DNA of 64,000 nt from Liolophura sinensis (Eukaryota > Mollusca > Polyplacophora > Chitonida > Chitonidae), in contig NC_088304.1 of assembly GCF_032854445.1 (NCBI RefSeq), forward strand, positions 34,450,551 through 34,514,550, in the 5' to 3' direction. Numbering within the stretch: position 1 is the first letter of the stretch; each line of letters begins with the position of its first letter. The notes beneath the pieces were generated by a model. It made no database searches. It worked only from the letters and a program-made list of their open reading frames with translations, and was not told where the DNA came from. The position numbers and the translations under genes are program-made. Below are positions 23,243 through 60,770 of this stretch, piece after piece.

Positions 23243-23487
23243 GGTTTATTTACTCGATTGGTGTTTCAGGCCTTTTTAAATATTTCATTTACACGACGGC
23301 ATTCACGAGTCCAGCAATATGGTGGGAAGAAACTGGGAGAGGAAACCCACAAACTTCTGCATGTTGCTGGGAGACTTTCACCCGTACTACTGGAGAGGAA
23401 ACTAGAACGAGCTGGACTCACAGCGACCGCACTAGTGAGAGGTTGCTCAGTCACTGTGATGCGCTAGCACGCTAACCACTAGGCTCT
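23243..23487 (-). mobile_element. SINE-A copy
   Basis: Minus-strand copy. On the plus strand it runs from the tail 'tttatttactcgattggtgt' through 'cagcaatatggtgggaagaa', 'tgttgctgggagactttcac' and 'gagctggactcacagcgacc' to the inverted tRNA-like head 'gcgctagcacgctaaccact'. The head complements 'ttagcgtgctagcgc' in the copies at 41576 and 55646. Confidence 0.8.
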
Positions 23488-33700: not shown

Positions 33701-35531
33701 GGAAAGCCCCAATCTGTCTTTTGTCACATCCAAACTTGTGCAAAATGTTGAGATTCCTGAAATACTGATTTGGCTTAACATGATGGCTTGTTAAGTTACC
33801 CCTACCCTCCAAAAATCACCATCTGCTAGAGGTGTTAGATTATGGGGTGAGGACAGATGGGCATGTGGGGTGTTGGGCTAAACCTCTACCACTACCCTGC
33901 CTACCCACATTACCCCCTCCCCCTTTTTCACCAGGACAGGAAATGTTCACCTGTCAATCAAGTGGATTATATAGGGGTATAAAATCCTAAACAATGGACC
34001 ACTCAATGACCTAACCAAGCTGCACGAGGCCAGTGATCATGATCACAATGTCACGTATTACTGACATCTGGGTCATGTGGTGCACCTTCCAAACACCCAG
34101 GCCTTGCTGACCCAAAGCTTCAAACTTTTCTACCCAAACTATTAAATTGGTTTCTACATTTCCAAACTTTGAATGCATAATTTTGAAGACGTATGTGTAG
34201 ACTTATACTAGCCACAGGGCATATATCGCCACATTTTTCTCATTATATTAAGGAGTAAAGTGCATGAGGAGATGTAAATTCCCCACTAATATTATTATTA
34301 TTATAAAAGTGAAACATATTTGGAATGAGTCTGCACTTCACTAAGATAATAGGCCTGTATATTTCATTTGTTCAAAGTAACCTATTTAACACTGATCAAT
34401 ATTATAACTCATTTCAGACATGCAAACAAACACACAGACAAATGAATGGACACATATTCTACCCCGCTGTTAGTTGAAGGCCGTGTGCAAAAATACACAT
34501 TAAAAAGAGATGACCTTTCAAACAAATCAGAGTGTGTCACGCAACACACTGGCGGGTACATTTACCTCCCCGACTAATATCATTTCATACTGTTTATGTC
34601 TACAAATAAAAGAATTTGAGTTTATTTTACTTGTTAGATTTGCTTGTGATTTATTTAAAGGTGAACTATCTGAATTTCCTTCAGTGACTAAAGTGTTATT
34701 TAGCACAGTTTATGCATATGGCTTTAGTTTATGCATTTTTTCACAGTTTACACTCACGTCACGCCGTTAAAAAAGAAACATTTGTATTAAGCTGTTCTAA
34801 TCTGAAAAGTAAACTTTCACATTACTATGTCATGCAACCACAAGACATGGCGCTATGAATAAAAGAAAATCATTGTCATTGTCCAGGTCCATGTCGTTCT
34901 CAAGTAGATTGTCTATTATTGACTGACATGCTACCATCTCTAGTGCATCCACAGCAAATGGACTATTATTGATGTTGTTATTTGTTAGATAATACTGGAC
35001 ACGTTTTATTCACTGGTGGTTCTGCGCAAGTGCTTCCAATTCTACTTGTGTTTAACGCAAATCCAATCGAACGCACTCAAGACGTTTAAACCCTTAAACA
35101 ACAGACGACATTCTATCAGTGACAGTGAGGGCGACATAAAACATAGCCTACATGACGCATTTATCGAGTCGCAAACAACTAGAGACATGGAGAATGTGAC
35201 TGTCTTTATAGCACACATTTTTGTGAGAAGATATACAGTACATGCATATACTAGACTATACAGTGATATTTACAGCTTTTCGGGCAGCCTTTTCCATACA
35301 CATGTTACTGAGTATGCTCAGAAGTAGGTCCAGTCTAGCCGTGTCTGTCACTTCAGAGGTCCGTGCCAGACGAAACAGCTCCGCCATGAAGCCCAAGCGA
35401 CACAGCTTCTCCGTGCTGCCCTTCTCTTTGAGCAGTTTAGAGCGAATGACACCCAGTGCATTGTTCACTTCTGATTGAGATTTGTGTCTCAAACAAGATA
35501 AAATACTTCGATATTTATCGTCCTTTGACAT
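23866..35531 (-). CDS. ARMC5: ARMC5: armadillo repeat-containing protein 5, BTB adaptor
   Basis: Spliced gene, coding order 35531-35274 (start ATG at 35531), 31867-31681, 30938-30801, 27460-25403 and 24700-23866 (TGA). Splice sites are GT-AG, and phases from the second to the last recognised exon join exactly. The N-terminal half has armadillo repeats ('NRICRSLANLALD' type, then 'LCLFCREAVNRVRIRELG'). A long Ser/Pro-rich linker follows, then an ARM-like segment ('FLSRVSQMPDPSKF', 'GTVAHVLKRKPE', 'ICLPFLCR') with close counterparts in vertebrate ARMC5, and a C-terminal BTB domain. In mammals ARMC5 is a CUL3 ubiquitin-ligase adaptor that controls RNA polymerase II RPB1, and its loss causes adrenal hyperplasia. 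The protein is about 1,170 residues, longer than human (about 935), mainly through the linker. The summed exon length is 3n+2, so one exon of 3n+1 bases is missing between the first two exons; the donor at 35273 is therefore the least certain site. Confidence 0.94.
25403..27460 (-). CDS. ARMC5: ARMC5 large exon: ARM repeats and Ser/Pro-rich linker
   Basis: 2,058-base exon bounded by acceptor 'tgtttgttag' and donor 'ctgcag|gtaagt'. It starts with ARM repeats (about 27460-26980). Basic and acidic low-complexity sequence follows, including 'APGKRRKVETED', a possible nuclear localisation signal near 26890. A dense cluster of Ser-Pro and Tyr-Ser-Pro steps lies at about 26500-26340 ('SCYSPDYSPQYSPLYQAYL'). 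The exon ends with an ARM-like block homologous to the second half of vertebrate ARMC5. Confidence 0.93.
27461..30800 (-). other. ARMC5 intron carrying the 51-bp minisatellite
   Basis: Lies between the 138-base exon 30801-30938 (donor 'aacaa|gtgagt') and the large exon. Two thirds of its 3,340 bases is a single tandem array (27893-30160). Just right of the array, around 30315-30375, sequence such as 'ggacagcacattttagtgag' followed by 'caggacaaataagg' resembles diverged single units and may be the unamplified progenitor. Confidence 0.9.
27893..30160 (+). repeat. 51-bp minisatellite, 44 copies with higher-order structure
   Basis: The unit starts 'cttcttgaacagtacacttt' and ends 'ggtaaggtagtttca'; 44 full copies and one partial can be counted. 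Variant sites are linked: 'gcacagtacattttaattac' versus 'gaacagtacactttagtgac', 'cttctt' versus 'catctt', and 'aaggta', 'aaagta', 'aaggca', 'atggca' and 'aaaaca'. Units 2-11 recur as units 15-24 (shift 13 units, 663 bp) and units 24-29 recur as 31-36 (shift 7 units, 357 bp), which shows segmental duplications inside the array. 51 is 3 x 17, so frames without stops persist for over 750 codons on both strands. Its intronic position and opposite-strand openness argue against coding. Confidence 0.95.
30801..30938 (-). CDS. ARMC5: ARMC5 exon (138 nt), armadillo repeat
   Basis: Too short to stand out as an open frame, but clear from splice sites ('cttgttttcag' acceptor, 'aacaa|gtgagt' donor) and from translation in the phase set by its neighbours: 'RLLGHSEKHRKKLVEEGGLF', then 'VACLVKEEDEALMDCGLRAL', then 'SELSN'. 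This is a typical ARM helix 2/3 pattern. It joins in phase 2 on both sides. Confidence 0.92.
31681..31867 (-). CDS. ARMC5: ARMC5 exon (187 nt), armadillo repeat
   Basis: The acceptor is 'ttgttcatgcag' and the donor 'gcattgag|gtgaga'. The translation runs from 'EIFEETGAGSVKNRICRSLA' through 'NLALDSATSDLIMATQA' to 'KKTCCRAL'. It enters in phase 1 and leaves in phase 2. Human ARMC5 has the same ARM repeat at this point ('NRTARALGNLAME' in place of 'NRICRSLANLALD'). Confidence 0.92.
32578..32690 (-). mobile_element. SINE-A fragment
   Basis: The plus strand starts with (TTTA)n, then 'tgattggcgttttacgccgt', 'actcaacaacatttcactta' and 'caccatgatggtgggaggaa'. This is the inverted 3' half of the SINE-A family ('ggcgtaaaacaccaatcaaa' in the plus orientation). 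Confidence 0.8.
32955..33230 (+). mobile_element. SINE-B copy, decayed
   Basis: Shares the family path: 'gagagacctgagatcacact', 'tcaaaaaatgctattagtag', 'actggttagtttggtgtcag', 'tgtcatgtctggtgtttttg', 'catacttcactggcagca'. The right end has lost the usual 'gttaaacccc' tail. Confidence 0.65.
33428..33500 (-). mobile_element. SINE-B 3'-end fragment
   Basis: The plus strand reads (TATG)n, then 'gaggtttaacgtcacacttt', 'acagtttttcagccatatga' and 'caaccagga'. This is the inverted family end ('tcatatgac...gacgttaaacccc'). Confidence 0.7.
35274..35531 (-). CDS. ARMC5: ARMC5 first coding exon
   Basis: The ATG at 35531 opens 'MSKDDKYRSILSCLRHKSQS'. The exon runs through 'EKLCRLGFMAELFRLAR' and 'LDLLLSILSNMCMEKAARKA', matching the first ARM-type helices of ARMC5 (human 'LDLALSILADCC'). 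I place the donor at 35273 ('aaagct|gtaaat'); a donor at 35258 or inside 'atgt|gtatgg' is possible. The sequence just upstream ('agcagtag|atg') could also be an acceptor, so a non-coding 5' exon is possible. Confidence 0.85.
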
Positions 35532-36939
35532 CTACTGCTTCCGATCTTCTTTCCACGTGAGAACCGACAATCGTCTGTCGACACCTTGTTCCTAGCGCCC
35601 CATACTATCCCGTCATGACCAACTGGGTAGTGGTGAACATTTGCACACGACACTGAGTAAGCGGGAGGGACCATTTAGTATCTATGCGGGGAATGAATTT
35701 CACAAAAGTTTTGTAAATCAAAAATTTATTATTTTTTTATATATGTATTTTATAGATAATTACTACTTTATTGGTAATCGACAGATATACAGTTAAAATG
35801 CATAAGTTGAAACGAAAACATTCTTGTAACTGTCCATACTATAATTACACCTTATAAATGGAACTCGTAAAACTCCTTCCCGCCCGTATCAAGACGGTCC
35901 AAAACTCTGAACTCATTAGTTTTTTCGTTTATTACGTCACAATTATCGATGTACGTTGGTTATAAAACATATATGAAGTACACACGCACTGCAGTGTCAC
36001 AGGAGAAAGCGATGCGTTTTAGATGTACATGTAATTCCTGAAGTGTATCTGGTGGTGGACTGTTGGTGTCATTAGGCCTATTTTGTAATTTTGAAATTCA
36101 TAAGTCAAGTGTTACCAAAAATTTTTAACTTGCACTATTGCAAGCAAACGCGACGTGACAGCAGTGGTGTCAGGCCCTGGAACCAGGATATGTGTTCGTT
36201 CATACGGCATTCAAAGACGTTATTCATACATATCACAGTCAAGTAAGATACATATTTATGTATTTCCATCTGACCATACATGTATCTATCCAAGCATTTT
36301 ATGAAACATCATTGAAGGAGATCATCATACAAATGTCATGACGTTTAGAAATGTACCGAGAGATTAGAGCCCACCTCCACAAGGCATATAACTACTAGAC
36401 AAATGCAAATGTGAACACATGCTGGAGAAAAAAGCTGCCACAGCCTTACAGGTGGAGTCGCGATTGACAAAACAGTTCTGACCGTTTTGCAAGCTTCTGT
36501 GCTGTACCATACACTGAGTATTCATGAAGTATTTATTTATTTATTTATTTATTTATTTATCTATTTATTTGATTGGTGTTTTACGTCACCTCAAGAATAT
36601 TTCACTTATATACGACGACGACACTTTATCCATGAAGTACCGTAATAAGCGTTATAAGAAGTTCTTTGATCGTCCAGATGAGCTTGGACTGGATCACTCG
36701 GACTAAGAACTGGATTACGATAGTCCCTTAACCCCCCCCCCACCCCACTCCCCTCCACGCTTCACCCTTACCCCAGGCAAATTTGCACTCATGTCACCCC
36801 CTCTCCACCCGCTCACATATCTTGATATGTCGTCCCCTGCACCACCGCCCTTGACGGGATAATGACTGCTCCCTGAAATGCATTAATAAAACACCACGTG
36901 ACCTTTTTTCCTCTTCATTCTCAGAGAAGACGCGTGAAG
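35532..36939. promoter_or_regulatory. Shared intergenic region between divergent ARMC5 and FET genes
   Basis: The two start codons face away from each other across 1,408 bases, so both promoters should lie here. No TATA box or known element can be assigned with confidence. The stretch holds a decayed inverted SINE-A fragment (36528-36612) and a C-rich run (36733-36760). Just before the FET start codon 'ttcctcttcattctcag' looks like a 3' splice site, which leaves open a 5' UTR intron. Confidence 0.5.
36528..36612 (-). mobile_element. SINE-A fragment
   Basis: (TTTA)n followed by 'tttgattggtgttttacgtc' and 'acctcaagaatatttcactt', the inverted SINE-A 3' end, located in the intergenic region between the two divergent genes. 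Confidence 0.8.
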
Positions 36940-39900
36940 ATGTCGGATCGTAAGTATTCAATTGTTCGTTATATCCCAGCTTGATCGCTGTTTAATCGTT
37001 ATGGAAAATACGCACAGAACACCGTTTATGCTTTTGTGAATGTTATGTGTCGTGTACTGATGTCCAAACGGTGATTGTGCGGGATATGTCTGGTCTAAAT
37101 CAGGCCTGACAAAGAGGTAGCCATATTAGAAATTTTTCAGGCTTGTTCGGCCATTAACTTTATCCGCCATGTTGCTTACTTTCTGATGAGTGATATTCTT
37201 GACAAAAGTACAGTTTAGTTGTTCGATCGTAAAGATCCTCACATGGATCTTTGTGGCAGCAGTAATATCACTGCTTGACGCAGAAGAAGTATTTGTCCCA
37301 TTCGTACGTCTTGTACGTCACCAAATCCTCTTACCGGGTGTACGGCATGTGCGCGGGTAAGAATATTTCATTAAGAGATTTATGTCTGATTATTTTGAGT
37401 TTTATCCCACAAAGTAAACATGTGGCGTTTACTAGTTACCCACTGAAAAGAAAATGTCATTATTTATCAAATGTATTTCCGTAAATAGGCCAAATTGTAC
37501 ATTTTGCATGCCCACTTACAATTAACATTGTGTTATCATTTTATTTTCAGAATATAGTGGTTATACCGCAGGGGCAGTTGGGGCCCAACCCAGGTAATGC
37601 TGCTCCTTTGTTTTGTGACCTGCTTGACATTGATTTACTCTTCAGAATTGTTTTATTGGCTTGAAAATTTACAAAATTTGCTACACTAATGAAATGAATA
37701 AAATCAAAATGCTAAATGCATGTGCTGATGTAGCAACATTGCTTCAAAATGGTTACCATCAGTAGATTTGGTAGGCCAAAGCCTTCATTTTATGATTTCA
37801 TTGTTAACAGCAACTCTTTCAAATCCTGAGTTGTAATCTATAAATAGTATGCATTATGTTGAAAATAACAAAAGCCTAGGAATGTCTACAATGAGGCCGG
37901 TTATAATTTCATTCAGGTAATGTTCTTTATGATAGGATTTTATGCTTGTGTAATTGAATGTAATGCATTTTTCTTTTCAGCTACAACTATTCAGGTTACA
38001 GTAGTACGGAAAGCAGTGGGTACACCCAACCTGCCAGCTATGCTCAACAGGTACAACATTTGGAATATTTAGGATTTGTAACTAATCTTGGTCAGATTAG
38101 AGTGGGTTTAAAGTGGGTGTTGTGAAGTGAGGTCGCTGTCCATTGTTAGCTATTGATTATCTTCTCAGATGCTTGCTTAGAGATGTTCTTAAATTAGATG
38201 TCCTATCATCTGCCATGTGATGTAAACATCAAACATTGTAAAGTTTCATTTAAATCTGCATAATAGAGGAAGTTATTTGTTCTGCAGAAGTTTTATCACT
38301 CGTTAACCTATACAGTCTAAGGCAAGGATATTTCTAAATGTTATATTGATATTTCTTCATGGTGTAAAATTTTGTTTGTAGCCTGCAGCAGGTACAGCAG
38401 CTTATGGCCAGAATTACAGTTATGGACAGACAGGCTACACCCAGGCAGCCCCGCAGGCAACGCAGCAGACTTCTTATGACCAAACTTCATATGCTCAGAC
38501 AGGTAGGGGACACTGGCAGAGTGTGGCTGGGATTTTACAACATTCGCCAATTCTGTATTCATGTTAGTCTCCTCCAATAAAAGAAAGTCTGTGATTTGAT
38601 AAAATTAAGAGGTGTTGGTATTTTTTTCAAATCTGATAAGTGAACTGAAGTTAATGTGTGTATAGATATATATACAGGGTTAGATCCAGGAATTTTGGGC
38701 CGTGTCAAGTTCTTTTTTGAAATAAAGAAAGCCAGTAGGTCTAGAAAAAAAATTCTTTTGAGAAGATTTAATTTCATTTTACACCACTGTTCTTTTGATA
38801 GACAATGTCATGCCCTAGATCTAACACTGATATGTATATTTAATTTTGTTGCTCTGAAGCAGCCTGTTCAGACACATGAACCAGAAAGGCAGGGGGTGTA
38901 GTTTGAGGGTTTAGATCACTTGGCGAGTCCAGCAATTTCCTGGCCAGACTCTGGAGATGTAGCTACCATTTTCTTACTTACCTTCTCACTTATTTTCTAC
39001 AGCCCCCTCCACTCAGCAAGCTTACGGACAGTACGGCCAACAAAGTTACTCTCAGCAGCCAAGTGACAACTCGGGCTACGGCCAGACGGCTTCTTATTCT
39101 CAACCAGGTAGCCGTCCTCGGGAACTAATCCTCTTGTTTGTGAAATCTCTGCATCAAGGAATTCATTCACTCACAGGAGTGTATCCATCTCCAGTGGTTC
39201 TGTGCCTAACAGCAGCTTGTGCAGAGAAAACTAGTTAATATGTAGTGCAAAAGTGGAAATCTTGTGTAACCTTCTGCTCTATCTCATTACCAAAAAATTT
39301 TTTTTCTGCTGTTCTGTGAAATCTGGGATTTGCAAAAGGGAAATACATCGTAATGGAAAATGTTTACTTTCGTAAATTGCTGGTGTCTCTTTATACATGT
39401 AAATGCATAAAGAAAAATTTTTATTACAATTTCGAAGGTAGATGAAAAACTTGCCATTTTGATGTTTTTCTCCATGTAAATCCCAGATATAAAATGAAGG
39501 CATTTTTGAAACTGTGTAAAACTGCTGAAGTAGGAAATAACAAGCATTGCAGCAGAGATGGATGAAACACGCATTCATCTGCAAAGAGCCTGTGGACTGG
39601 AACGTTCGTGCTCAGCCTACCAGCAGAAATAGATGTGTGTTCCCTGGAATTCTGCACTGAGACCACACAGGGACTCCAGAGAGTGTTGAAGGAATCTTGG
39701 GCAGTTTGGACAGGGTGTAATTCTACAAATGTTTGTTGTGATTGACAGGTTATGGTCAGACTGCTGCGCAGACCACGAGCAGTTCGTACGGCCAACAGAG
39801 CTACGGACAGCAGTCTCAGCCTCAGCAGAGCAGTTACACCAGTCCTCCACAGCAACAGTCTCAAAGCTACGGGGCCCAGCAGCAACAGAGCTACGGGGGG

Positions 39901-40550
39901 CAGTCACAGGGGGGCTACGACAGCAGCAGTTACGGCAGTGACCAGTCCAGTGGATACGGAGGTGAGCTTGCAATTGTATCATAGCGTTACACTGGTATTG
40001 AAATCAGCGGCCTCATTTGGATTTATTGTCCCGTTTTATGTTATTCTCATGACAAGTGGAGAGTCTCGCGGACGTTGTAAACATGGCCTGTTCTAAGCAA
40101 GAAAGACAAGGTTATGCCATCATTATAACAGGTGGATAACCGTTAAGAAATGTGCATTTCTGATCCACCGTCATAATGAATTGCGTTTTCAGGCAATAAA
40201 ATTTATCAACCATAGTATGTCTGGGTCAAAATGTGTGATATCTTAAATGCAAAGGTGATGAACTTGACAAACAAGATTATCCAATAAGATTAATTGTTTG
40301 GGAATATCTCAGATTACATGTAGTCTGTGTGATACAGCATGGCACTGTGCAATCTACAACAATCATTTATGTCTGAAAATATATGAATATCTGCATCTTA
40401 GTGATTTAAACTGTGGGAAAGATGGAAATTTTCCGATTTTTATTTCTTTTATTTCACTTGCTTGTAATGGTTGTTTGCCTTTGTTTCAGGTCGCTATGGT
40501 AGCGGAGGTAGTAGCGGGGGACCAGGGGGTGGTGGTGGCAGTAGTTATGG
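36940..40550 (+). CDS. FUS: FET gene exons 1-7: prion-like QGSY and Gly-rich region
   Basis: The start is ATG-TCG-GAT with only 10 coding bases in exon 1, as in vertebrate FET genes with short first exons. The translation begins '[17 protein letters not shown]' and continues with spaced Tyr in SYGQ-like steps ('[20 protein letters not shown]', '[20 protein letters not shown]'). These are the tyrosines that drive phase separation in FET proteins. Exon 7 (40490-40550) is Gly/Ser only ('[20 protein letters not shown]') and ends in phase 2. Confidence 0.95.
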
Positions 40551-43500
40551 GTGAGTCTATTATTTGATTACGTGGGATACTGGGTGGAATCACCATGATT
40601 ATACTCAATATGTCAACCTCTAAGCAAGAAAGACAAGGTTATACCTATTTTAAACAAGTGATGGTGTGAACATGTGTATATGGAGTGGGGGCAAAACAAT
40701 GTTTTGGTTTTAGACAAGCACGAAAAGAAAATAGGATGCAAGTGCATCAGGGTTAAAAGAAAGTGGAAAAGCCTGTATTTATGGCTGAAATGGTGTCAGA
40801 CAACATTACAAGGTGGTTGTTAACAGAATGTAAGAAGGCGTAAACTGTGGATCACCTGGTTTTGATATTTTTTTTTCTTTTGGATAAAAATGTATTGTTC
40901 GTATAACCCCATATTGTGTGTTTTCTGAGTACTTTTCTCACAGGTTACAGTGTTATCATCTACTCTTCATACATTTATTTGCAAAGATTTAAAATTTAGC
41001 ACTTATGGTGAAAAGTTTAAAAAACCAAAACGAAAAGAGAAAAAAAAAAGGGATCAAGTGTGTATTTGAAGAGATAGCCTCAAATGTTAGCTCTGAGGAA
41101 GGTGTATTGGTTGGTTTTAGTCCTGTTGGAAATATGCTATTGCATATAGGTGTATACAGTGGCTCTGGTTGGTGAACAGCTCTTATGGTTTGAGCAGCTT
41201 TATGCTTTAGTTATTTAGGACATTCAAGTATGTTTTTTCACTCCTGGTTGTGTATTATTATCTAGTTGTGAATGAGGAATACTGGTGTCTTAGCTGATCA
41301 GAAAATGTTTGTTACATACACTAAACTGCTGAAATAGAGGTGTCATATTAAATTATTAAATTTAGCAGTTATGAAGATCCCCACATAATGGGGAAACAAT
41401 ACCGTTGTGATTTCGTTTTTGTTACTGATTTCCATAGTGCCTTCTGGATGTCGACTAAGGAAGGAAAATTCAGGCGTATAATTGGCTGTCAATGAGGAAT
41501 GGAGTAAATCTTGGAGTTATCTTACCTTTGACAACACCCAGATGGCACTGTGCCTGTCTTGGTCATTGCCCATAATGGGGCCTCTGTTGGTTAGCGTGCT
41601 AGCGCAGCGTAATGACCCAGAAAACTCTCGCTAATGCAGTTGCTGTGAGTTCAAGTCCAGCTCATGCTGGCTTCCTCTCCAGCTGTACATGGGAAGGTCT
41701 GCCAGCATCCTGCAGATGGTCGTGTGCTTCCGCGGGCTCTGCCCACTTTGCTCTCACCATTCTGCTGGCCACTGTCATATAAGTGAAATATTCTTGTATG
41801 GCATAAAACACCAATCAAATAAATATTGCCCATAACTGAGTATTTACTATTGTTTCCCTTTTGTTTCATTACAGTATTGTTATATTCTGTTGGTTTCCTT
41901 TGTCCATATAACTGAAAGCTGTATACATGTATGAAGTGAAACATTCATGAGTAGCTCTGTATTAAACCTCAGTTAAATAAGTCTATCCAGAGGTGGCCAG
42001 CAGTGGACCTGGTTTATTGTTTTCCTTGTTCAACCCATAACCCAGGAAAATGAAAGGATTGGCTGGTTTGTTTGACAAGTGTGAATGTGACCATGCAGAA
42101 GCTTGAAGTCCGTACAGCACAAGTTCACAACGCAGAGATAATGTTTAGTGGAGCAGAATATCTGTAAACAAAAACTGGAAGGTGCTATAAAAGCTGAGTG
42201 CTATGCTCCAAGCCTGTTAGAAATTGACTCCTGATTGGTTTTGATGGATTGTTATATGCAAGACTGCCGTTAAACGACTTAGTGCTATGAGAAGATGTAA
42301 AAGAAGCCGAGAATACATGTAAATGTGAAAGTACATGCATATTTTTATATCTCGTGGAGACTATGTAGATCATTGCATGGAGTGGTTAGCTATGTAATTA
42401 GAATGCTTATGGTCATAATTTGTTCTTTTGTGTTTCTTTTCTTTTTTTTTATGCTTCTCTGAGCAGAAAGGCAGTAAAGTAAAACATTTGCTGTCAGCAT
42501 TTAATCTATTTATATCAAGCTTGTTTGGACAGGGAGCAATGTCTGTGACTTGTGTGTATATTTTTAAGATAAAAAGATCTGGACTGCAAAAGGAGTGATT
42601 TGGTCAGCATGATACAGAAATTGTAGATCATAGATTGAATGATCAGTTCACCCGCCTTGTTTTATGGATGGGTTGTATTTTTGGGAGGAGATGTGCCATC
42701 GACATGCCAACAAGACAAATGTTGTATAGTTTGTGGGTTTTGCCATTGTAGACTGTTAGCACGCCATGTGCAAATACAGTATACAGTGTTCAAAAGGTTA
42801 AGGTAATAGTGTTTGCTGATGGCTTTATACCATTTTTGTTCAGGTCTTAGTATTGAAAGGTTTTGGTATTTTTCTTCCTGCTCACATATTAAGAAGGGGT
42901 GAAGTGAAAAGGTTAATCCAGCTCTATTACAGGTGTTCAAATTACAACTACTGCGTGGAAACGGGAATAGGGTTCTGTGGAAAATTAAAGCTGCTGTAAA
43001 AGGTGTTGGTATGAAGAAGTGATTAATTGCTCACACATGTGGGTTGATAAGTGTTGCCAGGGGCCACTTTCATGAAACCTTGGAAATCAGTTTTTTCGTA
43101 ACTTTTCTCGTGAACGACTTCACCTTGGCGCTATAACTTGGACAATGTGTTTTATGAAAAAAGTTGCGAAAAATGTGACTAAGGATATTTAATGAAGGTG
43201 GGCCCACGGTTATATAATGCCTGCTTTAATAGCAGGCGAGCAGAAAAGTTTTTTCATCACCTATGGATTTGAAATGTTCAAGAATCACAGTGGGCATGAC
43301 TCAATCAAAAAGTGGGCTAAACTCCTTAAGACATGGTGATCTAAGATATGTGTTCAATGTATTGAAATGTTTGCTGTGGAGTGTATCCTTAACACTGATC
43401 AATGATCATGCTACATGCTCAAGGTGTGATTAAACTGGTCATCGTCAACAAGAAAGACCAGATACCTGTGTCACAAAGCCCACATAGCATTGAGTGCACT

Positions 43501-46500
43501 TAACTTCCAAGGCCACCAGTACTGTAGGTATTATGTCGCGTGGTAATTATGTGATCTTAGCACTATGTGCCCTTTGTGAACCGGGTCTCAGTATTTACAA
43601 TGTATTAATGTGTCAACAAACAAGGTGTCTACATCTTAGTATTGAAGGTGTTCTGTGTGTGTTATTTATGTTTACATATGCCAGTACTGGTATAATAACA
43701 CATTGGTTTATTAGATGTTGTGTGTTGTGGCAAGTGCCCAGCCTTGTGTGTGAGTTAGACCCAACCAGAGCCACTGAAGGGCATTAACACGATATATTGG
43801 CCAGGTTTTCTTGACAACGTTAGACTGTCTAGCCTTCTATTGTTGATACAGTTCGGTATGGTTGCAAAGCAGAAGAATGCAAAATTGGTATATAATATGT
43901 ATGATGTGTAACAATTGATGACCAGCAAAAAGTGTGATCGCCAAACGAGGTGTTGAGATGGCGAGACGACAGAAGACCAGTGAAGACTGGCATTCTGAGC
44001 GTACAGTCAGCTCGCGCACGGTGGCCACGCCCACCGTCAGCGGCTGCCTGTACTCATCAGATTTTGTGTAATTTCAGCGGAGGACGCGGTGGAGGTTACA
44101 ACAAAGGTGGTAAGTGGTAGTAGGGTCCACAGCCTCTACTTTACATTGTTTCTAATCTGTCAGTCTGCAAATAAGTGTTAATATTGGTATATATGTTAGT
44201 CAGTATTGTGGTCATTATGCCGACATGGTTCAGGTTACATTAACTGGTCAGTTTGGTGTTCACAATTACATGTATGTGTCTAACAGGCACAGTTATTCTA
44301 ATAACGGTTTATCAAGGTGGTCAGCAAAATTATGAGGGTGATAATGTCGTGGCTTGATCCGAACATAGATCCATTCGGTTGTCCATGACACAATGATGTA
44401 ATGTGTACATGAAGGGTTATAAAAATGTGCAGAAGCACTAATAGGTTTTACGAACAAGTGCAAATTATTTAGTCACTTTATGATGTATTGAAACACTAGA
44501 TTGGTGTCCATCAGAGCGAGTAAAAAGCTGATCTCGGGGATGTGGTGTAAGGATTACAACTCTGAAGCATTGTATGTGCTCAAAGAGTAGGTGGGGGGGG
44601 GGGGAAATGTGACAACTAAGTGTTTGAACGGTTTAACGAGGAAGTGTCTGGTGTACAGAATCTAAAGGTCTCATGTCAGGTTGATCTATGGCATTTGATA
44701 TGTTGCTTTATGGGAAGGTTACAATCGAGATTTTACAACACGAAGGTGCGTTATGAAGCATGGTAATGAGGTGAATGTATTGTACATGTGTACGAGTTGA
44801 TATTCACATGCAGACCTTAACATTAGAGACAGAGGGGAAGAAAGGTTATTGTGCCCAGTGTTTTGGGCTAGACAGCTCTCTAGAGAGGGAAACAAATCTG
44901 CGTTCTACCTACTAGAACAACACTACCAAATATGATTATCCATGATCAATGGCCAGACTTGGAGTTGTTACTCCAGTAGGTAAAGAACACAGCTATTCAG
45001 TTTCATCTTCTACCAGATTTTCTTCCCTTTGTAGAGGTCCTGACACTGTGTGTTGAAACAAATCAATTTATCTGCAAAAAGATGTGCATTTGAAAGTTGC
45101 ACAGGTTTGAAGATTAGGCTTGGCTTTATAGTGTATAATTGCACCTTTATGCAGTGTGTGTGTTGCAAGAAGAACAATATTGTGTTCATACTCCTTACAG
45201 CACATGCGCTGCTCTCCATGTTCACTTTACATCTCTGCCACCACTCAGAGATTTTGTAAAGAAATCTTAAACAAGGTAAAAGGGGTCACAGTGATGAAGC
45301 AGAAAATGGTGTCAGAAATAACAAAGGCACTATTTTCACCTTTGCTTCTATTAACACTTGACATGCACACATTCATTTCTTCTAAATCATGCACAACGTT
45401 AATTTATTCCACTGAACTCCTGAAACCGTTTTATTGACGAATACTGATTAACTAGGCTTGTGAGAGGATATTAGTGATGAGGCTAAGCCTCGCAACAAGC
45501 CTACTTGGAATCGCACAGGTCAAACTTGTCAAGTGGTGGCAGTGGTGAAAAGCGAGTGGACATGCGCTGTAAGCAGTATGTATGGTGTTAACAGGATGGC
45601 TGTAGTCCAAGCCTTGATGGTAGCAAATCTGCAAAGTGAAACTTGTGGTCATAGCGCCTGAAATGTTCCAAGTCCTTGTAAAGCTACACATTGTCACCTG
45701 TTTGTTTATGTAATCCACTTAACTTACCTGTATTTGAATTTATTTACAGGTAACAGTTCCTATGGCGCAGGAGGTTAGTGCATTCTTGATTTCATTATGT
45801 CTTACTCAATTTATGTACAGTGAGTAAATACTCCAGGCTGTCTGTAAAAGCCTTTTGTTTGGCATAACCTAACGTGGAAAAATGAATATGGGATTGTATG
45901 AATGACAGTTTGTTTCATAAGGCTGATGAAAAGACAGATGTTTAATGAAATTACCACGGAGAGGAAAACAAATTTACATCAAAATCCCAATAGAAAACAG
46001 TGCGGTTGTGCCTAACAAATCGTTTCAATGATGGCTTAATGTGCTGTGGATGTAGATAGTGCTGCTTGTACAGCTGATCTGAAGGTCTTGCGAACCCAAA
46101 CCGTGTAAACATGTTCCTTCTTTGCTTCATTGTGACTGTGTTGAGAGGACCCTATTCACAGAAATATTTTTTTAGAAATTTAGATCAAGTATATGTAACT
46201 TGGCAAACAGGATGATTTGTTGCTTTTCACGATAAATCTCAATTCCTGTTTGAATAGTAAAACTTTTTACTTGTCTGCAGTAATCTGGCAATCTGAAATT
46301 ATTGGTTGTTTGAGGCAATGTGGCCATTTCTTTTCCGTTTGGGTGCTAAAAGTGCCATTTTTTGGGGGTTTTTTTTGAAGTGTTATTGCTTTGCTAATGT
46401 GAATTAGCATATGGTCATCTTGTTAAGACAAGCGCTATTTTAATCAAGTTACCACATGTACTACAGCGTGCTACCAGGACATTTATTATTACTAAGCTAT

Positions 46501-49500
46501 TGTTGCCTTTTTCGTTTCCTCTCGCTGTTTTTGACAAATCAGTACCAGTCTGTTGTAGTATACTCCTGGTCACTCTCTGAAGGCTTGGGTCATTAGCTTT
46601 GGGAGATGATGTATTTGAAATAAGTGTAATTCAATTCAACCTTTTTCTATGGTGGTATTTCCGTAGAATCAAGAACATTTTAAGGCTTGGCCTTCCATCA
46701 GGCTGTTGTGCCTATTTAAGGGGATTAAATGCAAAGTAGAGGAGCTAGATAATCCTAAATGGTAACAAGTTTCTAGCAGATCACTACCTCCGGTGCTAGC
46801 TTAGAAATTTACAGAACCAGATTATATGGCTTCCAGTTTTGCCTGACCTATCCCAAAGCAAGAAGTGAACCATCATAAAGTCAGAAGTCCCTTTTTTCAA
46901 ACCATTTTGGCTTTATTCTGGCTAAAGCTGTCTGATTAAACAAACCATGTTAAAGGAGAAGAAAACTTAAAAACATGACACTATAGGCTGAAAAGAGAAC
47001 ATTTTTTCCTACCTGGTGTTGCCTGCTGCATAATTTTGTGATTTTCCTCGCCTGTGTCCAACATTCTGCTTTCCCAATCGTCAAGCAGAAAACAAACTGT
47101 ACTGTTCACTGCTTTCTGTGAAGAAGAGTTCTAGCGGAAATATACATACTACACTTCAGTGGTTTCCGACGGCAATTCTCCTCCTAACACAGAAGACTTC
47201 AGGACTAGTTCTTAGGCAAAATGGAGTTGCCCACAGCAGATTTTGGCGCTGACTTTATTTATAATTTATCAACTTGAGGTACAGATTAGAATTTGTTTTG
47301 TGACATGCACCGGCGAGGAAATACATCCCCTTTAAATGGTATTTGATTGATATTTATATTTTCTTCTCCTTTAAACCATGTGTGGGCTTTGTTCTGTATC
47401 AGCCTTCACAAGATTTTGTTTTCTGCGAACAGGAGAAGCCAAGCAAACCAGTTTACAGTAATATTTCCAGTGGCCATTTTCATTTTTACATAGGAAAAGG
47501 TTGAAGTGTTAAGGAAGAAAATAGGCCAAGCTTTGTCTTGTCTCTGGGTACAGACCTGATTAATGTTACAATGTATTGGTGAGGTTCTTGATAAAATGTT
47601 CTAGTTGCCACCCTCGTGCTGCCAATGTCCCCTGCCTCTTTGTCATCCGTGTAAACCATGCACACTCCTGCTCTGATAGATTCACTCAGGCTGAGCAGTC
47701 TTCATAAGGCCAACTTATGAAGACTTGAGCAGCAATTCCATCCTTCAACGCCCAGCTGATAATGATTAACATGTTAACTGTGAAGTTAGCCTTGTTCAGG
47801 TGTTCCTATGGTTCCCCTGTGCTCACTAGATGCATTAAATACCACTTTACCCACCTAGAGAGATCACAGTATATGCGTTTAGACAACCTACTGCGAGGTA
47901 CCGTCACAAGCGGTGCTTTGCCCGCAGCAGATTTACAGTAAGACTTCCATCTATCTTAATTACTTCAGCTTGTCAGGTTTGTCAGGTATCTTGTGGATGG
48001 AGGGTGGTCACTTCAAGCACCTTCTTTGCTCCACACATAAACCACACAGCTGTCAAATGGCTAAAAAAAATTTTGCTGTTGAATCACTGTTACTGGTTGC
48101 TGATTAAAAGTTACTACCATTGAAACTCAACCTAGTCCATGAAATTGAGTTTTGCAAGAAAATGATGTTATAACAGGATGGTTTTGTTGCTCCAGTTGTG
48201 TTCTTGCCTAAATATATAGTCCAGCATTTTGTCATTCTGTAAAGTACTGGCCATGCAATCGCAGGAGTGTGCAGCCCCCCTTTTTCTTTAGAGCTTCTGT
48301 GTTCTGTCTAGATTGCAGCGTGTGTCACTTGTCTGTAACTAGCTCCTTTATAGTGCAGCTGGGTAACCCTGTGTCACTGACTCCTCTTTTTCTGTACAAC
48401 CACTCGTAGAACAAATGGAGACACAGGTGGACACTATATTCGTGTCCGGGCTCCCTGACACCGTCAATGAAGAGGACCTGAAAAAACACTTCGGCAGTAT
48501 TGGCATCATTAAGGTACCTTTATACATTCCATTTCCTTCATTCATTCATCCATCCATTTCCTGTTAACAACGTCAGCATTAGGTAATATGAATTCAAACG
48601 ATAAAAGACATGCAGACAAATATAAATAAGTTAAAATTCTTTTTAAAGATCTACTTTTAACTTTATTGCTCTTAAGAAATACCTAGTAAGTCTTATGGCA
48701 TTGGGCTTCAGTAGTGCATCCTTTGCAATCTACCAGATCGTGAGTAAAACCTACATTTCGTGTACCAAGATGTCGCATAAGTGCCAAATATACATGTAAA
48801 CCGTTGTCATCGCTGTATACAAGTCCTTAGGACCCTTTGAGAAGATATAATGTTGTTGATGTAAACTCTAATGTAATGCTGGGCTCCTGCTCGTGCCTCG
48901 ACACAGATGGACAAGAAGACCATGTCCCCTAAAATCTGGATCTACAAAGATAAAATGACAAACCGGCCGAAGGGGGAGGCAACTGTGACGTTTGATGATC
49001 CGGAGACTGCCAGCGCAGCCATCAAGTGGTTTAATGGTTTGTACTCCATGTGCCTGACTCACAAGTTTTCCTTCTTCACTAGCCTCTGCTCTATCATATC
49101 TCTCTACTTTGCCTCGTGACTTCTTCACATTGCTGGCTTCGAGTGTTCCTTCTGCTTCCTCTTTTGTGTGGTGGTTCTTTGTGTTTGATCTTGTCTACCT
49201 ACCGAGTGTGTTGTATTGATCGTGCTGTGGGCTTGGATCACAGTGCAAACCCCTGTAAAATGGACACAATAACTGCAGAAATAAAAATTTGAATGTACCT
49301 TTTTGTTGAAGTAAATAAGTCCTTGAACATTTCACTTCATGTAGCGATGTTTTGTTTTGGAATGGCACTTAATTTAAGTGCAGCAGAACAGTGTATTCCT
49401 TTTTTGCATTTACTTAAGATGCCTTAATGTATGTGCACTGGACAAATATCATCCTGGACTGTATTATTCGTCTTCCGGAAAATCGCCGCGTCTCCACTTC

Positions 49501-52500
49501 TGTTTTTCTGTGATCCAAGTTCCATGTTACTTTTGTCACTTTTCTCTCCCATCCAACCCACACCTTTCTCCCCAGTAGATTTGTTACTTGTTTAGGTTCC
49601 ATTGTGGCTTGTGCTCCAGGGTGGCAAACTTGTGATATGCTTGTAGTTGGTGGGGCGGGGGGGTGTTATTGACGGTTAGGTTTCTTTCCAGGCTTATCAG
49701 TTGTGGTTTTGGAAGAATGGGGTGAGTGGAAACTACCATTTATAATGGCTCCACCATACAAAGCTGTGCTACATGTAGCCTAAGTTGGCTGTAATACTTC
49801 AACAATATGTGCGCTCCCTTTTTTTTTACCTTGTCGTCCTGGTAGTTACAATCATTGCAGTTGTGGATAGAAACTTGGTCCATGGAATTGTCTTGGTGAA
49901 ACATTTCAGAACAGGCCAGACGGCAAGGCCTCAAATCATTTAGGCCACATGTTTTGCAACGACTCCAAAAAATTCATGTTATCAAGTATTCATTAGATAG
50001 ATGAATGGAATAGACAGGTATTATTGAATATAGCCGACACCGAGTTACAAGTTTCCACAAAACGAGACTGATCAAAATCATAGATGTAATTATTTGCTGC
50101 GCGTGTCCACAAAGCTGCACGTCTTGTCAACAAACCAAGACTACCTGTTAGATCTTCCAGGCGAACAGCTGTTGTGAGTACAACATACACAGTCCACTGC
50201 TCTTCTTGTAATGTTTATACTTCACTCAGGGTTTCCAACCCTGATCCTACATCCAAAGCATTATGCCAGGTGTGAATTATAAAATCAAACCTCATTCATC
50301 ATCACACATGTAATCTTAACTCTGCTGTTTCCAGGTCAGCCTTTCTTGGGAGGTCCCGTTGTGAATGTGGAGTTGGCCCAGAGGAAAGCCTCTTCCTTCT
50401 CAATGAGGGGAGGACGAGGTGGACGAGGAGGTGAGTAATCAGAAGTTAAGCAGGTGACCATTATACCTGGTCAGGGCTATCAAATCTAAACTCTCTAACA
50501 TGCGAAAACCTACACTGTCTGATCTGATTTTTGGAAAACAGAGAGTATTTGACGTTTGAGACTGTTATTGAAGAAGACAGTCAGGTTCTTGAAGGGGCTG
50601 CTTTGAGAGCAGGCTACCCAGGTGCTTGGCAAGGGAGATAATTTACTTTGGTTTCCTCCACCCATAAACCAAATCAATGTAATGCAGGGAACAAAATTTG
50701 CATGTGTATTGTGTCCAGGAATCGCCACCATGCATTCATAATTTACAGTCGAAAACTGGGATCTTCGTAATAAAGACACGACAAACTTAAATGGAAATAG
50801 GGATTGAGCAGGGTGGAATTAGTTGATTTTACTTGGCCTGTGGGTGTTTTCCTACTGAAAGCTCCTGTGGAAATTTTGCTATTGGCCAGCTGTGTTTTAT
50901 GGTATGTTAATGATGCCAGTGTATATGATTTACAGGCGGACGTGGTGGAGGACGTGGTGGATTTGATGGAGATCGTGGCCGAGGAGGCGGCGGTGGTGGA
51001 GGAGGAGGTAGGTTTCAGTAACAATGTTACCCATATTTCTCATCCTTTTCACATTTGAAAGAGTGACTTTCAGTGCAATTTATGTACACTTTTGATTTTC
51101 GAAACAAAGCTTTTGGTTGGTTTGCCCAGTTTCAGGGGTTTACATGAAGTATAAGGTTATCAGTCTGCTCAGAATAAACATCAATTAACATTTTGGAAAT
51201 ATACAAAAAGGTTGGATTAGGTACCTGTTTCTTGGTTTTATTTTAGATTATATCTTTGAGTTACTGCAATTTGCTCAGAATTGTTTGATACGTTGTGACA
51301 TGCATTAGTACCTTAGGATCAGTTGGGTTTCCCTTTCACATAAACTGAATTGCCACTATGTAAATAGGGTAAGTTTGACAAGGCCTACTACGTAAACACC
51401 AACCAAATGTATGTAGCAAATGCTCATGGTTTCCCCCAGAAGGAAAATATTGATTTGTGTCTTGCACCTTGTTTTACTTTCAGTATTGATGTGTAGACAT
51501 GCTGAAGAACACTTTCTGCAACATACATTAGCATATGCGATCATTGATAAATTATTTTCTTTTATTTATAGGTGGTCAACCAAGACAAGGTGACTGGATC
51601 TGTCCACAAGAGTAAGTTTTTCTTCTGTTGTTCTGTGAAATCTTGTGTAACTATTAACAAAACTTTGTAATGAGCCCACTTTATGAATAAAGACTGAAGT
51701 TCAATAAAATTTAACACTAATCGTTGTACTTTTGTAGTGTTCCTTTGCTAATATTATCAGACTCATGTACCTAGACTGTTTTAGCTTTGACAAGCTCATT
51801 CGGCTGGCCACGTTTTTAAAATCCGATTTTCCTCCCAGTATAATGCTGGCCCCCTTTGTACAAGCGATATATTCCTGGCTATTGCATAAAACACCAATCA
51901 ACTAAATAAATTTAGCCCATTATCATCTAACATGGGCCTTTCACTTTACTGAAAAGGGCCAGAGTGCAAAATGACCTTGACTCCTTGGGAGTTGACCGGA
52001 ATTGACAGTTGTTTCTATGGTGTTCAGAAGTTATACAGTTTGCGTGATGTATTTACAGGAGCTGTGCTAACACCAACTTTGGCTGGAGAAATGAGTGTAA
52101 CCGGTGTCGTACCCCTAGGCCAGATGGAGAGGGCGGATTTGACGATGATGGTAAGATAATGTTGATACTAATGGACGAATGCGAAGGAAACTACATTCTT
52201 TACACTGATTATGAAGTAAAACCCCAGTATCTTTACAGAATTTGTCAGAGTAACCACCCGGCTGTATGAACTGTGTAACAGAAGGGTGAGCATTTCCTTG
52301 AAGTTGTGATTTACTGGTCATCTTAATGCCATCAGTTAAGTGCAAAATTGAATTGGAAGTGAAAATTGTAGATGTGTTAATTATGGCTATACTATAGCCA
52401 TATATACTATACAGGCAAAATTAAAACTGCACTATCAAGATAGAAGGCTTGGAAATTAGAGACCTTACAATGTTAGCTTAAAACTTGTCCCGAGTGTTGT

Positions 52501-53290
52501 CTGAGGTTTGATGTCTTCGCTTGCACTTGCATCTGTTTAACAAAATCTGTTGTTTGAAAACTTTTTGCAGGTGGTCGGCGAGGTCGGGGCCGTGGACGTG
52601 GCTTTGGTGGTGGCCGTGGAGGATTTGGTGACCGTGGTGGCCGGGGAGGCAGAGGTGGATTCGGAGGAGGCCGTGGTGGTTTTGGTGACCGTGGAGGTCG
52701 TGGTGGGTTCCGTGGAGGCCCCAGAGGAGGGTACGGTGACCGTGGGGATAGAGGCCGTGGAGGGTAGGTTTAGTCATTACTCAAAGTACATATTGAGAAT
52801 TTACTTTGGGTTTTACAGGATGGGATTTGTTGTAAAGTATGGGTGTATGTTTTTTTATCATAAAAGAAAATTATTGCTCAGAAAATTACCTGGAGATGGA
52901 TGTAGTGTTAAGATGAAATTGTGTAAGTTACCTGATCATAACGTGTAGCTCATGATGGAGTTAGTGATGACATCGGGAACGAACCCCTTTACAAGTAATG
53001 AACCGGTCAAGATTAACCTTTATTTCATCTGGAAAATGGTATAAGAGTAAATGTCGAAATATTTCTTTTAAAATGGACTGAGTTTTGTGCTCTCAAGGTT
53101 TGGTAGAGCCAGTTGTCCGCGAAATTCAATAGAACTCTGTGGATTCCACCTTTGATTGTGATTGCTGTCATTTAAATGAAATTCTTCAGCACTGCGTTAA
53201 ACATCAATATGACTTCATGAATTTAACCTTTGATTCTGATTTCCTTTCAGCCGTGACGACAGAGGCGATAGGAGACCAAGACCGTACTGA
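36940..53290 (+). CDS. FUS: FET-family RNA-binding protein (FUS/EWSR1/TAF15, cabeza)
   Basis: Seventeen coding exons join in phase to 1,446 nt (481 residues plus stop): 36940-36949, 37551-37593, 37981-38050, 38382-38502, 39003-39107, 39749-39961, 40490-40550, 44078-44109, 45750-45773, 48410-48513, 48907-49036, 50335-50430, 50936-51007, 51572-51611, 52059-52150, 52571-52763 and 53251-53290, all GT-AG. Residues 1-187 are a Gln/Gly/Ser/Tyr prion-like region, 188-226 Gly-rich, about 230-320 the RRM, 325-360 RGG, 362-396 a RanBP2 zinc finger, 400-469 RGG, and the end 'GDRRPRPY' is a PY-NLS. FET proteins bind RNA, act in transcription and splicing, and phase-separate through the QGSY region. Invertebrates usually have one such gene, so the FUS symbol stands for the whole family; human FUS is 526 residues. 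Confidence 0.96.
41576..41824 (+). mobile_element. SINE-A copy with 11-bp target-site duplication
   Basis: The tRNA-like head ('ttggttagcgtgctagcgc', B box 'gagttcaagtcc') is followed by the family body ('atgctggcttcctctccagc', 'gggaaggtctgccagcatcc', 'tgcagatggtcgtgtgcttc', 'gtgaaatattcttgtatggc') and the tail 'caccaatcaaataaat'. It is bounded by ATTGCCCATAA at 41565-41575 and 41825-41835, a target-site duplication that dates it as a discrete insertion in FET intron 7. Confidence 0.92.
43069..43206. mobile_element. Small palindromic element (MITE-like)
   Basis: The left end 'ggggccactttcatgaaacc' and the inverted right end (reading 'gggcccaccttcattaaat') are similar, and inner 'gtaacttttctcgtgaacga' and 'ttttatgaaaaaagttgcg' are partly complementary. 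No coding capacity and no clear target duplication. The class is uncertain. Confidence 0.5.
44078..45773 (+). CDS. FUS: FET gene exons 8 and 9 (32 nt and 24 nt micro-exons)
   Basis: Exon 8 (44078-44109) codes the RGG-like '[10 protein letters not shown]' and exon 9 (45750-45773) 'GNSSYGAG'. Both have good splice sites ('atttcag', 'gtaagt'; 'tatttacag', 'gttagt') and the phases fit (2 to 1, 1 to 1). Joining exon 7 directly to exon 9 gives GGG-TAA, an immediate stop. Human FUS has a similar Gly/Arg/Tyr segment ('GGGGYNRSSGG') before its RRM. Confidence 0.9.
48410..50430 (+). CDS. FUS: FET gene exons 10-12: RRM and first RGG
   Basis: Exon 10 contains RNP2-type 'TIFVSGLPD' and the first helix '[16 protein letters not shown]'. 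Exon 11 begins '[20 protein letters not shown]' and has the RNP1-equivalent '[19 protein letters not shown]', where, as in other FET proteins, the aromatic RNP1 residues are replaced (GEATVTF). Exon 12 ends the RRM ('[13 protein letters not shown]') and starts RGG repeats ('MRGGRGGRG'). The loop with Lys residues between helix 1 and strand 2 is the FET-type KK loop. Confidence 0.95.
50936..52150 (+). CDS. FUS: FET gene exons 13-15: RGG and RanBP2-type zinc finger
   Basis: Exon 13 codes '[18 protein letters not shown]'. Exons 14-15 join to '[20 protein letters not shown]' followed by 'CNRCRTPRP', a RanBP2 zinc finger with Cys-x4-Cys-x10-Cys-x2-Cys, the Trp of the GDW motif and the 'NxxFxWRxECNxC' signature that binds GGU-type single-stranded RNA. 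An acidic 'FDDD' follows. Confidence 0.95.
51780..51910 (+). mobile_element. SINE-A fragment in FET intron 14
   Basis: Carries 'tttcctcccagtataatgct', 'gcgatatattcctggctatt' and the tail 'cataaaacaccaatcaacta' then 'aataaat', corresponding to the 3' half of SINE-A. The head is missing. Confidence 0.75.
52571..53290 (+). CDS. FUS: FET gene exons 16-17: C-terminal RGG and PY-NLS
   Basis: Exon 16 codes a Gly/Arg/Phe-rich region ('[20 protein letters not shown]' type). Its repeats at the DNA level (ggtgaccgtgg-type blocks) suggest local duplication. Exon 17 codes '[12 protein letters not shown]' and TGA. The basic stretch followed by a C-terminal Pro-Tyr is the Transportin-1 binding PY-NLS at the same place as in human FUS, where it is the hot spot for ALS mutations. 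Confidence 0.95.
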
Positions 53291-53522
53291 GAAAAACAAA
53301 GTTTTACTCTTTTAAACTCCTAGAGTGTTTTCTTTATTTTATTTCCTGGCCATGTTTCCGATTCCTATAAAATGGATCAAAACATTTGGGTGGAAATCCA
53401 TGTGACTATTCAAATATATGTTAATGTCTTCAAACTCGTCATCACAATCACTGTTCATTTCATTCACCCATTTGTCAATTCATTGCCTCATTTGGCGAAA
53501 ACATTGTGACGTGTTTTCTTGT

Positions 53523-53528
53523 AATAAA
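53523..53528 (+). terminator. Polyadenylation signal AATAAA of the FET gene
   Basis: Canonical AATAAA 233 bases after the FET stop codon. T/G-rich sequence ('agttggttccttgttttgta') follows within 30 bases, the usual downstream element. This suggests a 3' UTR of about 250 bases. Confidence 0.7.
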
Positions 53529-53540
53529 ATGTCAGAAATT

Positions 53541-54389
53541 ATACGAAGTTGGTTCCTTGTTTTGTATTGTAGGTTATTTGTCGGCCCAGACTCGCCCATT
53601 ATAGGTTGTGATTATAGGTTATACACGAGTGCATTGATTTTCATTACTGTGTATGTAGTAAATCTGTCAAGTTCAACCTCAAAAGAGTGTGTCACCTGTC
53701 TTTCGCATGGTACCAACCCATGCAGTTTGCACTTTATCTAAAATACATAGAGATCATCATCACACTGTGCTTATCTGCATCGTCGTATCTGCTAGAGTCT
53801 GCCAGAGAACGAGAGCAGATGTGACGATGCAGGTCTGCACGGTATAATGATAATCTATTTATCATATACCTTCTATTGACACTACTTTGGGGGGCATAAA
53901 ATCCAGATATCTCTTCAGACCACTTTGCTTAGCGTATAGTGTCTGGCAGTGCACAGGCCGTCGTTACGCTCACAAACTATTACGCACATGGATTTCGTTC
54001 TAGATATAGCATATTTCAAAATAGTTGACCACCGCACAAGACACAAAACATTGGGTAAAAAAAAAATGAAAATAAACAAAGAAAATATGAGAAAACAAAG
54101 ACTCGGAAAAACGGTGGAAATATTATTTATACATCAAGTAAGTATAGCTGGCTTTTCGAAACACACATGCTATCTGAATGCAAGAACTGTAACGTTTATA
54201 TAAACATCATCTCAAACCTGACAAGTGGCATTTTGAAATTGAGTATGGCAGCTGTAAAGTGCGGTAAAAAAAATCCGGTCAATCACCAATTTTAGAAGTG
54301 AAGAAGTGATTTAATTACATGTGGATGACTGAAATTTCTATAAATTTGCTGAAGTCTCTGTGAGTTCTTGAAAGACTTTGTCAACAAAG
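53541..54389. other. Gene-free stretch after the FET gene
   Basis: No recognisable exon. Its right end joins the tyrosine recombinase remnant on the minus strand. The small plus-strand open frames contain no known domain. Confidence 0.5.
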
Positions 54390-55645: not shown

Positions 55646-55907
55646 GGGGCCTCCGTGGCTCAGTTGGTTAGCGCGCTAGCATAGCGTAATGACCCGGGAG
55701 TCTCTCATCAATGCGGTCGCTGTGAGTTCAAGTCCAGCTCATGCTGGCTTCCTCTCCGGCCGCATGTGGGAAGGTCTGTCAGCAACCTGCAGATGGTCGT
55801 GGGTTTCTTCCGGGCTGTGCCCGGTTTCCACCCATCATAAGGCTGGCCGCCGTCGTATGAGTGAAATATTCTTGAGTACGGCGTAAAACACCAATCAAAT
55901 AAATAAA
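55646..55907 (+). mobile_element. Full-length SINE-A with 14-bp target-site duplication
   Basis: The best preserved copy in the window. The tRNA-related head has A box 'tggctcagttggttagcgc' and B box 'gagttcaagtcc'. It is followed by 'ctcatgctggcttcctctcc', 'gggaaggtctgtcagcaacc', 'tgcagatggtcgtgggtttc', 'gctggccgccgtcgtatgag', 'gtgaaatattcttgagtacg' and 'gcgtaaaacaccaatcaaat', ending in (AAAT)n. The 14-base TGAACCCCATTGTC occurs directly on both sides (55632-55645 and 55908-55921). Confidence 0.95.
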
Positions 55908-60569: not shown

Positions 60570-60770
60570 ATCGTGAAATATTCTTGTGTACGGCGTAAAC
60601 CACCAATCTCCTCTCTGGCCGTACGTGAGAAGGTCTGACAGCAGCCTGCGGATGGTCGTGGGTTTCCGCCGGGTTCTGCCTGGTTTCCTCCCACCATAAT
60701 GCTGGCCGCCGTCGTAAAGGTGAAACATTCTTGCGTAAAACATCAATCAAATAAATAAATAAATGAACCA
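60570..60770 (+). mobile_element. SINE-A fragments, nested or rearranged
   Basis: A first SINE-A 3' piece ('gtgaaatattcttgtgtacg', 'gcgtaaaccaccaatc') runs straight into a second, longer one ('tctctggccgtacgtgagaa', 'gcggatggtcgtgggtttcc', 'ctcccaccataatgctggcc') that ends in 'caatcaaataaataaataaa'. The junction suggests that one copy inserted into the tail of another. Confidence 0.8.

Follow-up and report, generated by a model that had tools for sequence, protein, structure and literature searches.

The 64,000-nt stretch of Liolophura sinensis DNA analysed here (the window) carries a FET-family gene. Spliced at GT-AG sites, the + strand gives between positions 36940 and 53290 a single open frame that spans 17 exons and encodes 481 aa, and in translation the predicted protein has a SYGQ-type N terminus, RGG stretches and a C-terminal RRPRPY. 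It matches the Pfam domains RRM_1 (8.9e-12) and Zn_ribbon_RanBP (1.6e-06), and the solved-structure chains that match it best in a phmmer search are those of human TAF15 (6.9e-48) and FUS (9.7e-46), with human EWS also matched. FET proteins are marked by a SYGQ-rich N terminus, an RRM, a RanBP2-type zinc finger, RGG regions and a C-terminal PY; by all five marks the predicted 481-aa protein is a member of the family. A scan of 36900-53600 for known structured RNAs gave two family matches, whose scores (21.5 against a gathering threshold of 43, and 20.8 against 55) are so far under threshold that we take both as chance. The parts of the gene discussed below are the following.

36940..53290, + strand: FET-family gene from start to stop codon (17 coding exons, 481 aa)
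40490..40550, + strand: exon 7 (61 nt, phase 1 to 2, final bases TATGG)
40551..44077, + strand: intron 7 (3,527 nt, with a SINE-like repeat copy inside)
43253..43843, + strand: GU-rich stretch upstream of exon 8, with the 500-nt GTG and TGT peaks
44078..44109, + strand: exon 8 (32 nt, phase 2 to 1), encoding (G)-10 residues-(G); candidate essential exon
44110..45749, + strand: intron 8 (1,640 nt)
44110..44809, + strand: GGU cluster right after the exon 8 donor (26 GGT and 0 ACC in 700 nt)
45750..45773, + strand: exon 9 (24 nt, in frame, phase 1 to 1, first bases GTAAC)
48410..48513, + strand: exon 10, which carries the start of the RRM

Several other features of the window are worth recording. 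An ARMC5-like gene on the - strand (23866-27522; Pfam ARM_ARMC5 1.2e-44, BTB 1.8e-10), with a possible N-terminal exon at about 35160-35540 of the same strand that was read by eye, forms a head-to-head pair with the FET gene. In the human genome, FUS and ARMC5 both lie in 16p11.2, so this linkage may be very old. Farther away, the - strand carries a Tctex-1 family gene, probably a dynein light chain (62046-62579; 2e-27), and an endonuclease domain of the type found in LINE-type retroelements (8701-9828; Exo_endo_phos_2 9.9e-09). A long repetitive stretch at 27835-30162 has open reading frames on both strands (775 aa and 752 aa), and there is a further repetitive open reading frame at 910-1686. 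A dispersed SINE-like repeat occurs both inside the FET introns and outside the gene, with copies at 41582-41825 (intron 7), 55659-55905, 60609-60757, 23247-23478 and elsewhere.

Within the FET gene, the first-pass annotation had singled out exon 8 as a tiny exon whose skipping, like the retention of either flanking intron, would bring an immediate stop. The exon coordinates and sizes, the intron lengths of 3,527 and 1,640 nt and the phases all proved correct on re-splicing. Joining exon 7 to exon 9 does give GGG-TAA, because exon 9 opens with GTAAC, and keeping intron 7 gives GGG-TGA at once. Retained intron 8 likewise runs into an in-frame TAG (GGT-AAG-TGG-TAG), although its placement after four codons was off by one: with the split codon counted, TAG is itself the fourth codon. 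The stop made by skipping lies 1 codon past the junction, with 747 nt still to go to the last exon junction, so the RNA that lacks exon 8 is a predicted target of nonsense-mediated decay (NMD). By its structure, exon 8 is a candidate essential exon, on whose skipping the frame of the FET gene is lost just before the RRM. Since exons 8 and 9 are predicted from DNA alone, one might suspect an artefact of the gene model, with one of the two exons unused or the frame bridged by another exon. A scan of 40551-48409 was restricted to exons 12-159 nt long, taken one at a time, that satisfy fixed criteria for donor and pyrimidine content; within these limits, three stop-free candidates restore the frame between exons 7 and 10, of which exon 8 alone is Gly-rich. 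Exon 8 is also the top match to human FUS exon 7 (see below), and we consider an artefact highly improbable.

The stop codons themselves were taken in the first-pass annotation as a sign of a feedback switch. However, such outcomes are generic across this gene. Ten of the 15 internal exons are non-triplet, and for eight of these ten, skipping creates a stop that precedes the last exon junction by more than 55 nt. Retention leads to a stop within 43 codons in every one of the 16 introns and to a stop in the first codon in five of them, including all four phase-2 introns; by simple arithmetic, a phase-2 exon followed by GTAA, GTGA or GTAG has a first-codon stop. Exon 8 stands out solely by how early its skip stop comes, after 1 codon as against 8 to 232 codons for the other nine non-triplet exons. 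We therefore rejected the stops as evidence for a switch, the same outcomes being common across the exons and introns of the gene. The frequency of non-triplet exons and of introns with a first-codon stop (10 of 15 and 5 of 16) instead favours the closest rival of a feedback account, namely that exon 8 is an ordinary constitutive microexon, inherited from the ancestral FET gene and always included, and that neither the stops nor the GGU-rich flank has a regulatory role. We would give this explanation a little under an even chance.

The splice sites also bear on this question. Ranked with a donor matrix, not MaxEntScan, the donor of exon 8 is third and that of exon 7 seventh among 16, so neither is weak, and good donors are what a constitutive microexon would be expected to have. 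At the acceptor of exon 8, pyrimidines make up 60% and an AG lies just 15 nt upstream; at that of exon 9, pyrimidines make up 65%, and the AG-free zone of 64 nt is the second widest of 16 with several others close. In human FUS, according to PMC12285722, a weak upstream donor is combined with a weak downstream acceptor. That arrangement is not reproduced at the exon 7 donor and the exon 9 acceptor, and neither of the donors of exons 7 and 8 shows the weakness seen in human FUS.

A link to the regulated human exon comes from exon 8 itself. An antisense oligonucleotide over the intron 6/exon 7 junction indicates that human FUS exon 7 starts with CGGAAGTGAC (PMC3814325, in the portion available). 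According to this published junction oligonucleotide, the human exon begins with CGGA after GG, in phase 2, which is also how exon 8 begins. For the other end, primers for a FUS-ERG fusion, in which FUS contributes exons 1-7, read GTGGTGGCTTCAATAAATTTGGTG followed by GC and partner sequence (PMC2481291), and another primer indicates that FUS also runs on as GGTGGC (PMC7507938). Together, these primers place the end of human exon 7 after GGT, GGTG, GGTGG or GGTGGC, that is, at 34 to 37 nt, and 36 nt is out because skipping of the exon is reported as a frameshift, which leaves 34, 35 or 37 nt (PMC3814325, same portion). In the human exon rebuilt in this way, one base between oligonucleotide and primer was inferred from a FUS Arg codon. 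We take the human exon to be 35 nt long and to end with GGTG in phase 1; given that assumed length, the last four bases, GGTG, are common to both exons, and the alignment, with one gap of 3 nt that keeps the frame, shows identity at 23 of 32 positions. Among the 471 in-phase 32-nt windows of the coding sequence, exon 8 ranks first against the human exon with a score of 32, the runner-up windows scoring 29. Three protein alignments are informative here. In the alignment with the FUS RRM construct 6snj_A, GGYNK-GG stands opposite GGFNKFGG, and in that with TAF15 the same stretch stands opposite GGFKNFGG, whereas in full-length FUS (5yvg_X) GGYNKGG is displaced by several residues and does not stand opposite GGFNKFGG. 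On this comparison, exon 8 is probably the orthologue of human FUS exon 7; we put it no higher because the human 3' phase is assumed and one alignment disagrees. It should be kept in mind that conservation of the exon may merely mirror the slow change of gene structure.

If exon 8 were regulated by FET protein, binding motifs might be expected nearby. According to PMC3814325, FUS motifs comprise GGU, GGUG and GUGGU, and CLIP of FUS gives its strongest signal within 100 nt downstream of cassette exons. Five motifs were tallied over the 16 introns of the gene. After masking of two SINE-like copies, GGT occurs 102 times in the 4,918 nt of introns 7 and 8 combined (20.7 per kb) and 108 times in the 9,641 nt of the other introns (11.2 per kb), an excess with a binomial p of 1e-5 if clustering is ignored. 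No such excess is seen for ACC, the control for the opposite strand (38 occurrences in introns 7 and 8 versus 99 elsewhere, p 0.15). At all six window sizes between 200 and 1000 nt, the intronic window richest in GGT begins within 44116-44206, and the start of intron 8 ranks first in a set of 1,980 windows, each 500 nt long and taken from either strand, that leaves out the FET exons and two minisatellite zones and keeps the exons of other genes. The GGT peak was reached in 7 of 300 dinucleotide shuffles of introns of at least 500 nt in one scan and in 3 of 200 in another, while the GTG and TGT peaks upstream of exon 8 were each equalled in 3 of 200 such shuffles. Two other origins of the cluster were considered and discarded: none of the five tandem-repeat rows falls inside it, as a minisatellite would require, and its 26 GGT are split 9, 8 and 9 over the three frames (hand count), which does not suggest a decayed coding repeat.

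The GGU signal also has features that point the other way. With dinucleotide content fixed, GGT over the whole intron reaches a z of only 0.8 for intron 7 and of 2.1 for intron 8. GUGGU in intron 7 is under expectation (3 versus 7.0), and intron 13 has about the same GGT density as intron 7 (19.5 versus 19.2 per kb). Introns 7 and 8 show a regional G-over-C strand skew, which can account for part of the GGU excess, and several other trinucleotides peak locally too, 8 of 64 being at p <=0.05 in the shuffle scan, GGG, AAA and AGA included. Both observations are in keeping with a constitutive microexon; what speaks against it is that the GGU peak lies directly after the very exon that best matches a regulated human exon. 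Overall, we regard the GGU signal as moderate and suggestive. The likeness to vertebrate FUS that the first-pass annotation had drawn is thus partly supported: it holds for the exon start, the phase, the encoded motif and the GGU cluster, but not for the stop codons as evidence, and the analogy is stronger than a reading of the sequence by itself could tell.

The unit under control might also be the preceding exon rather than exon 8. A 27-nt element with 26 of 27 bases identical occurs at 40092-40118 in intron 6 and at 40619-40645 in intron 7, starting at intron positions 131 and 69, respectively, with little likeness outside the element. These near-identical copies flank exon 7, a 61-nt exon whose loss shifts the frame, and could control its inclusion; moreover, a 22-nt core has no further match in the window at up to 3 mismatches and none in 100 shuffles. 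Yet the element could also be a fragment of a repeat that is common elsewhere in the genome, or a recent short duplication, and no fold is common to both copies. Shuffled sequences fold as well as the intron 6 copy in 8 of 200 cases and as well as the intron 7 copy in 183 of 200, and the fold z is -1.60 and 1.20, respectively, for core pieces and -1.40 and 0.31 for longer ones; these unlike values rule out a shared hairpin. A role as a pairing site was likewise rejected, the best duplex in the gene having -20.3 kcal/mol compared with a mean of -20.9 for 20 shuffled elements. The element may be regulatory, a small duplication or a rare repeat fragment, and control of exon 7 through it seems improbable to us.

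How might a feedback through exon 8 operate? When abundant, FET protein would bind the GGU-rich RNA around exon 8 and might slow the recognition of this tiny exon. The exon could then be skipped, with an immediate stop and predicted NMD of the transcript, or introns 7 and 8 could both be kept and the RNA would stay in the nucleus; either outcome would lower the amount of FET protein made. A working feedback switch of this kind, ancient or evolved in parallel, is plausible. Regulated feedback acting through exon 8 is nevertheless a tentative proposal, to which we give somewhat less than an even chance, and the account as a whole, in which exon 8 and FUS exon 7 are orthologous and FET-driven skipping or detention of exon 8 lowers FET protein, we hold equally tentatively. 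Intron 7 tolerates a SINE-like insertion, and we counted this against regulation.

The mechanism of FUS autoregulation in vertebrates is itself disputed, which counts against regulation of exon 8. FUS is reported to drive skipping of its own exon 7 followed by NMD (PMC3814325). In PMC7337901, by contrast, introns 6 and 7 are retained and no exon 7 skipping is detected, with the retained RNA exclusively nuclear and cycloheximide without effect. In PMC12285722, cells that lack FUS protein show no change in retention. Finally, in PMC6547761, the FUS essential exon shows a shift of -0.16 with a q of 0.8 and is listed only once the threshold is relaxed. Detention without skipping, in which the block from intron 7 through exon 8 to intron 8 is spliced late, the RNA is nuclear and NMD has no role, would accord with the mammalian retention of introns 6 and 7 without detected skipping (PMC7337901) and with its mutually dependent character (PMC12285722). 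The mammalian splice-site pattern is, however, not clearly seen in the chiton gene, where the exon 7 donor is seventh of 16 and the exon 9 acceptor has 65% pyrimidines. Detention without skipping is a narrower form of the feedback account, so our estimates for the two overlap, and it appears fairly unlikely to us.

As for age, one may speculate that the feedback acting on FUS exon 7 predates the protostome/deuterostome split, so that an essential microexon in a fixed frame and a FET-bound GGU array would have limited the dose of this aggregation-prone protein since early bilaterians, before FUS, EWSR1 and TAF15 separated. We consider this doubtful. The specific match between the two exons opens the age of the FUS feedback to a direct test. 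Among the matches listed from the open-licence literature, there was none whose title or opening abstract lines deal with regulation of an invertebrate FET exon or with a counterpart of exon 8. A scan of viral sequences gave no relative. The prokaryote scan returned a sole locus (L001, 9980-10336) in a Parachlamydiales metagenome-assembled genome, encoding a short RRM protein with a Gly-rich tail; by appearance, it is an ordinary bacterial RRM protein and not a FET gene. The control of FUS dose has a link to ALS, and the mechanisms published for mammals conflict. If a species this distant keeps both the essential exon and the GGU array, it would show which cis-elements are old, which of skipping and intron detention came first, and if an invertebrate FET gene may serve as a simple feedback model. 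Human FUS exon 7 is itself reported to help cells limit FUS levels (PMC3814325).

Compared with known systems, exon 8 is closest to exon 7 of human and mouse FUS. Both are microexons shortly upstream of the RRM, are entered in phase 2, start with CGGA, code for a GG(F/Y)NK motif, shift the frame when skipped and adjoin GGU-containing RNA; if the assumed length of 35 nt holds, they also share the GGTG end and the exit in phase 1. They differ in that exon 8 has 32 nt and is separated from the RRM exon by one more exon, of 24 nt, and in that the donors flanking the exon 8 region are not weak. Unproductive splicing of SR genes (PMC4379411) offers a parallel as a form of regulation that occurs across animals and is partly conserved and partly of independent origin; it relies mostly on poison exons, whereas the FET gene has a candidate essential exon. 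The class to which exon 8 would belong is already known, namely the essential exons of autoregulated RNA-binding protein genes as used in PMC6547761, which likewise break the frame and lead to predicted NMD on skipping, and by its structure exon 8 is a candidate member.
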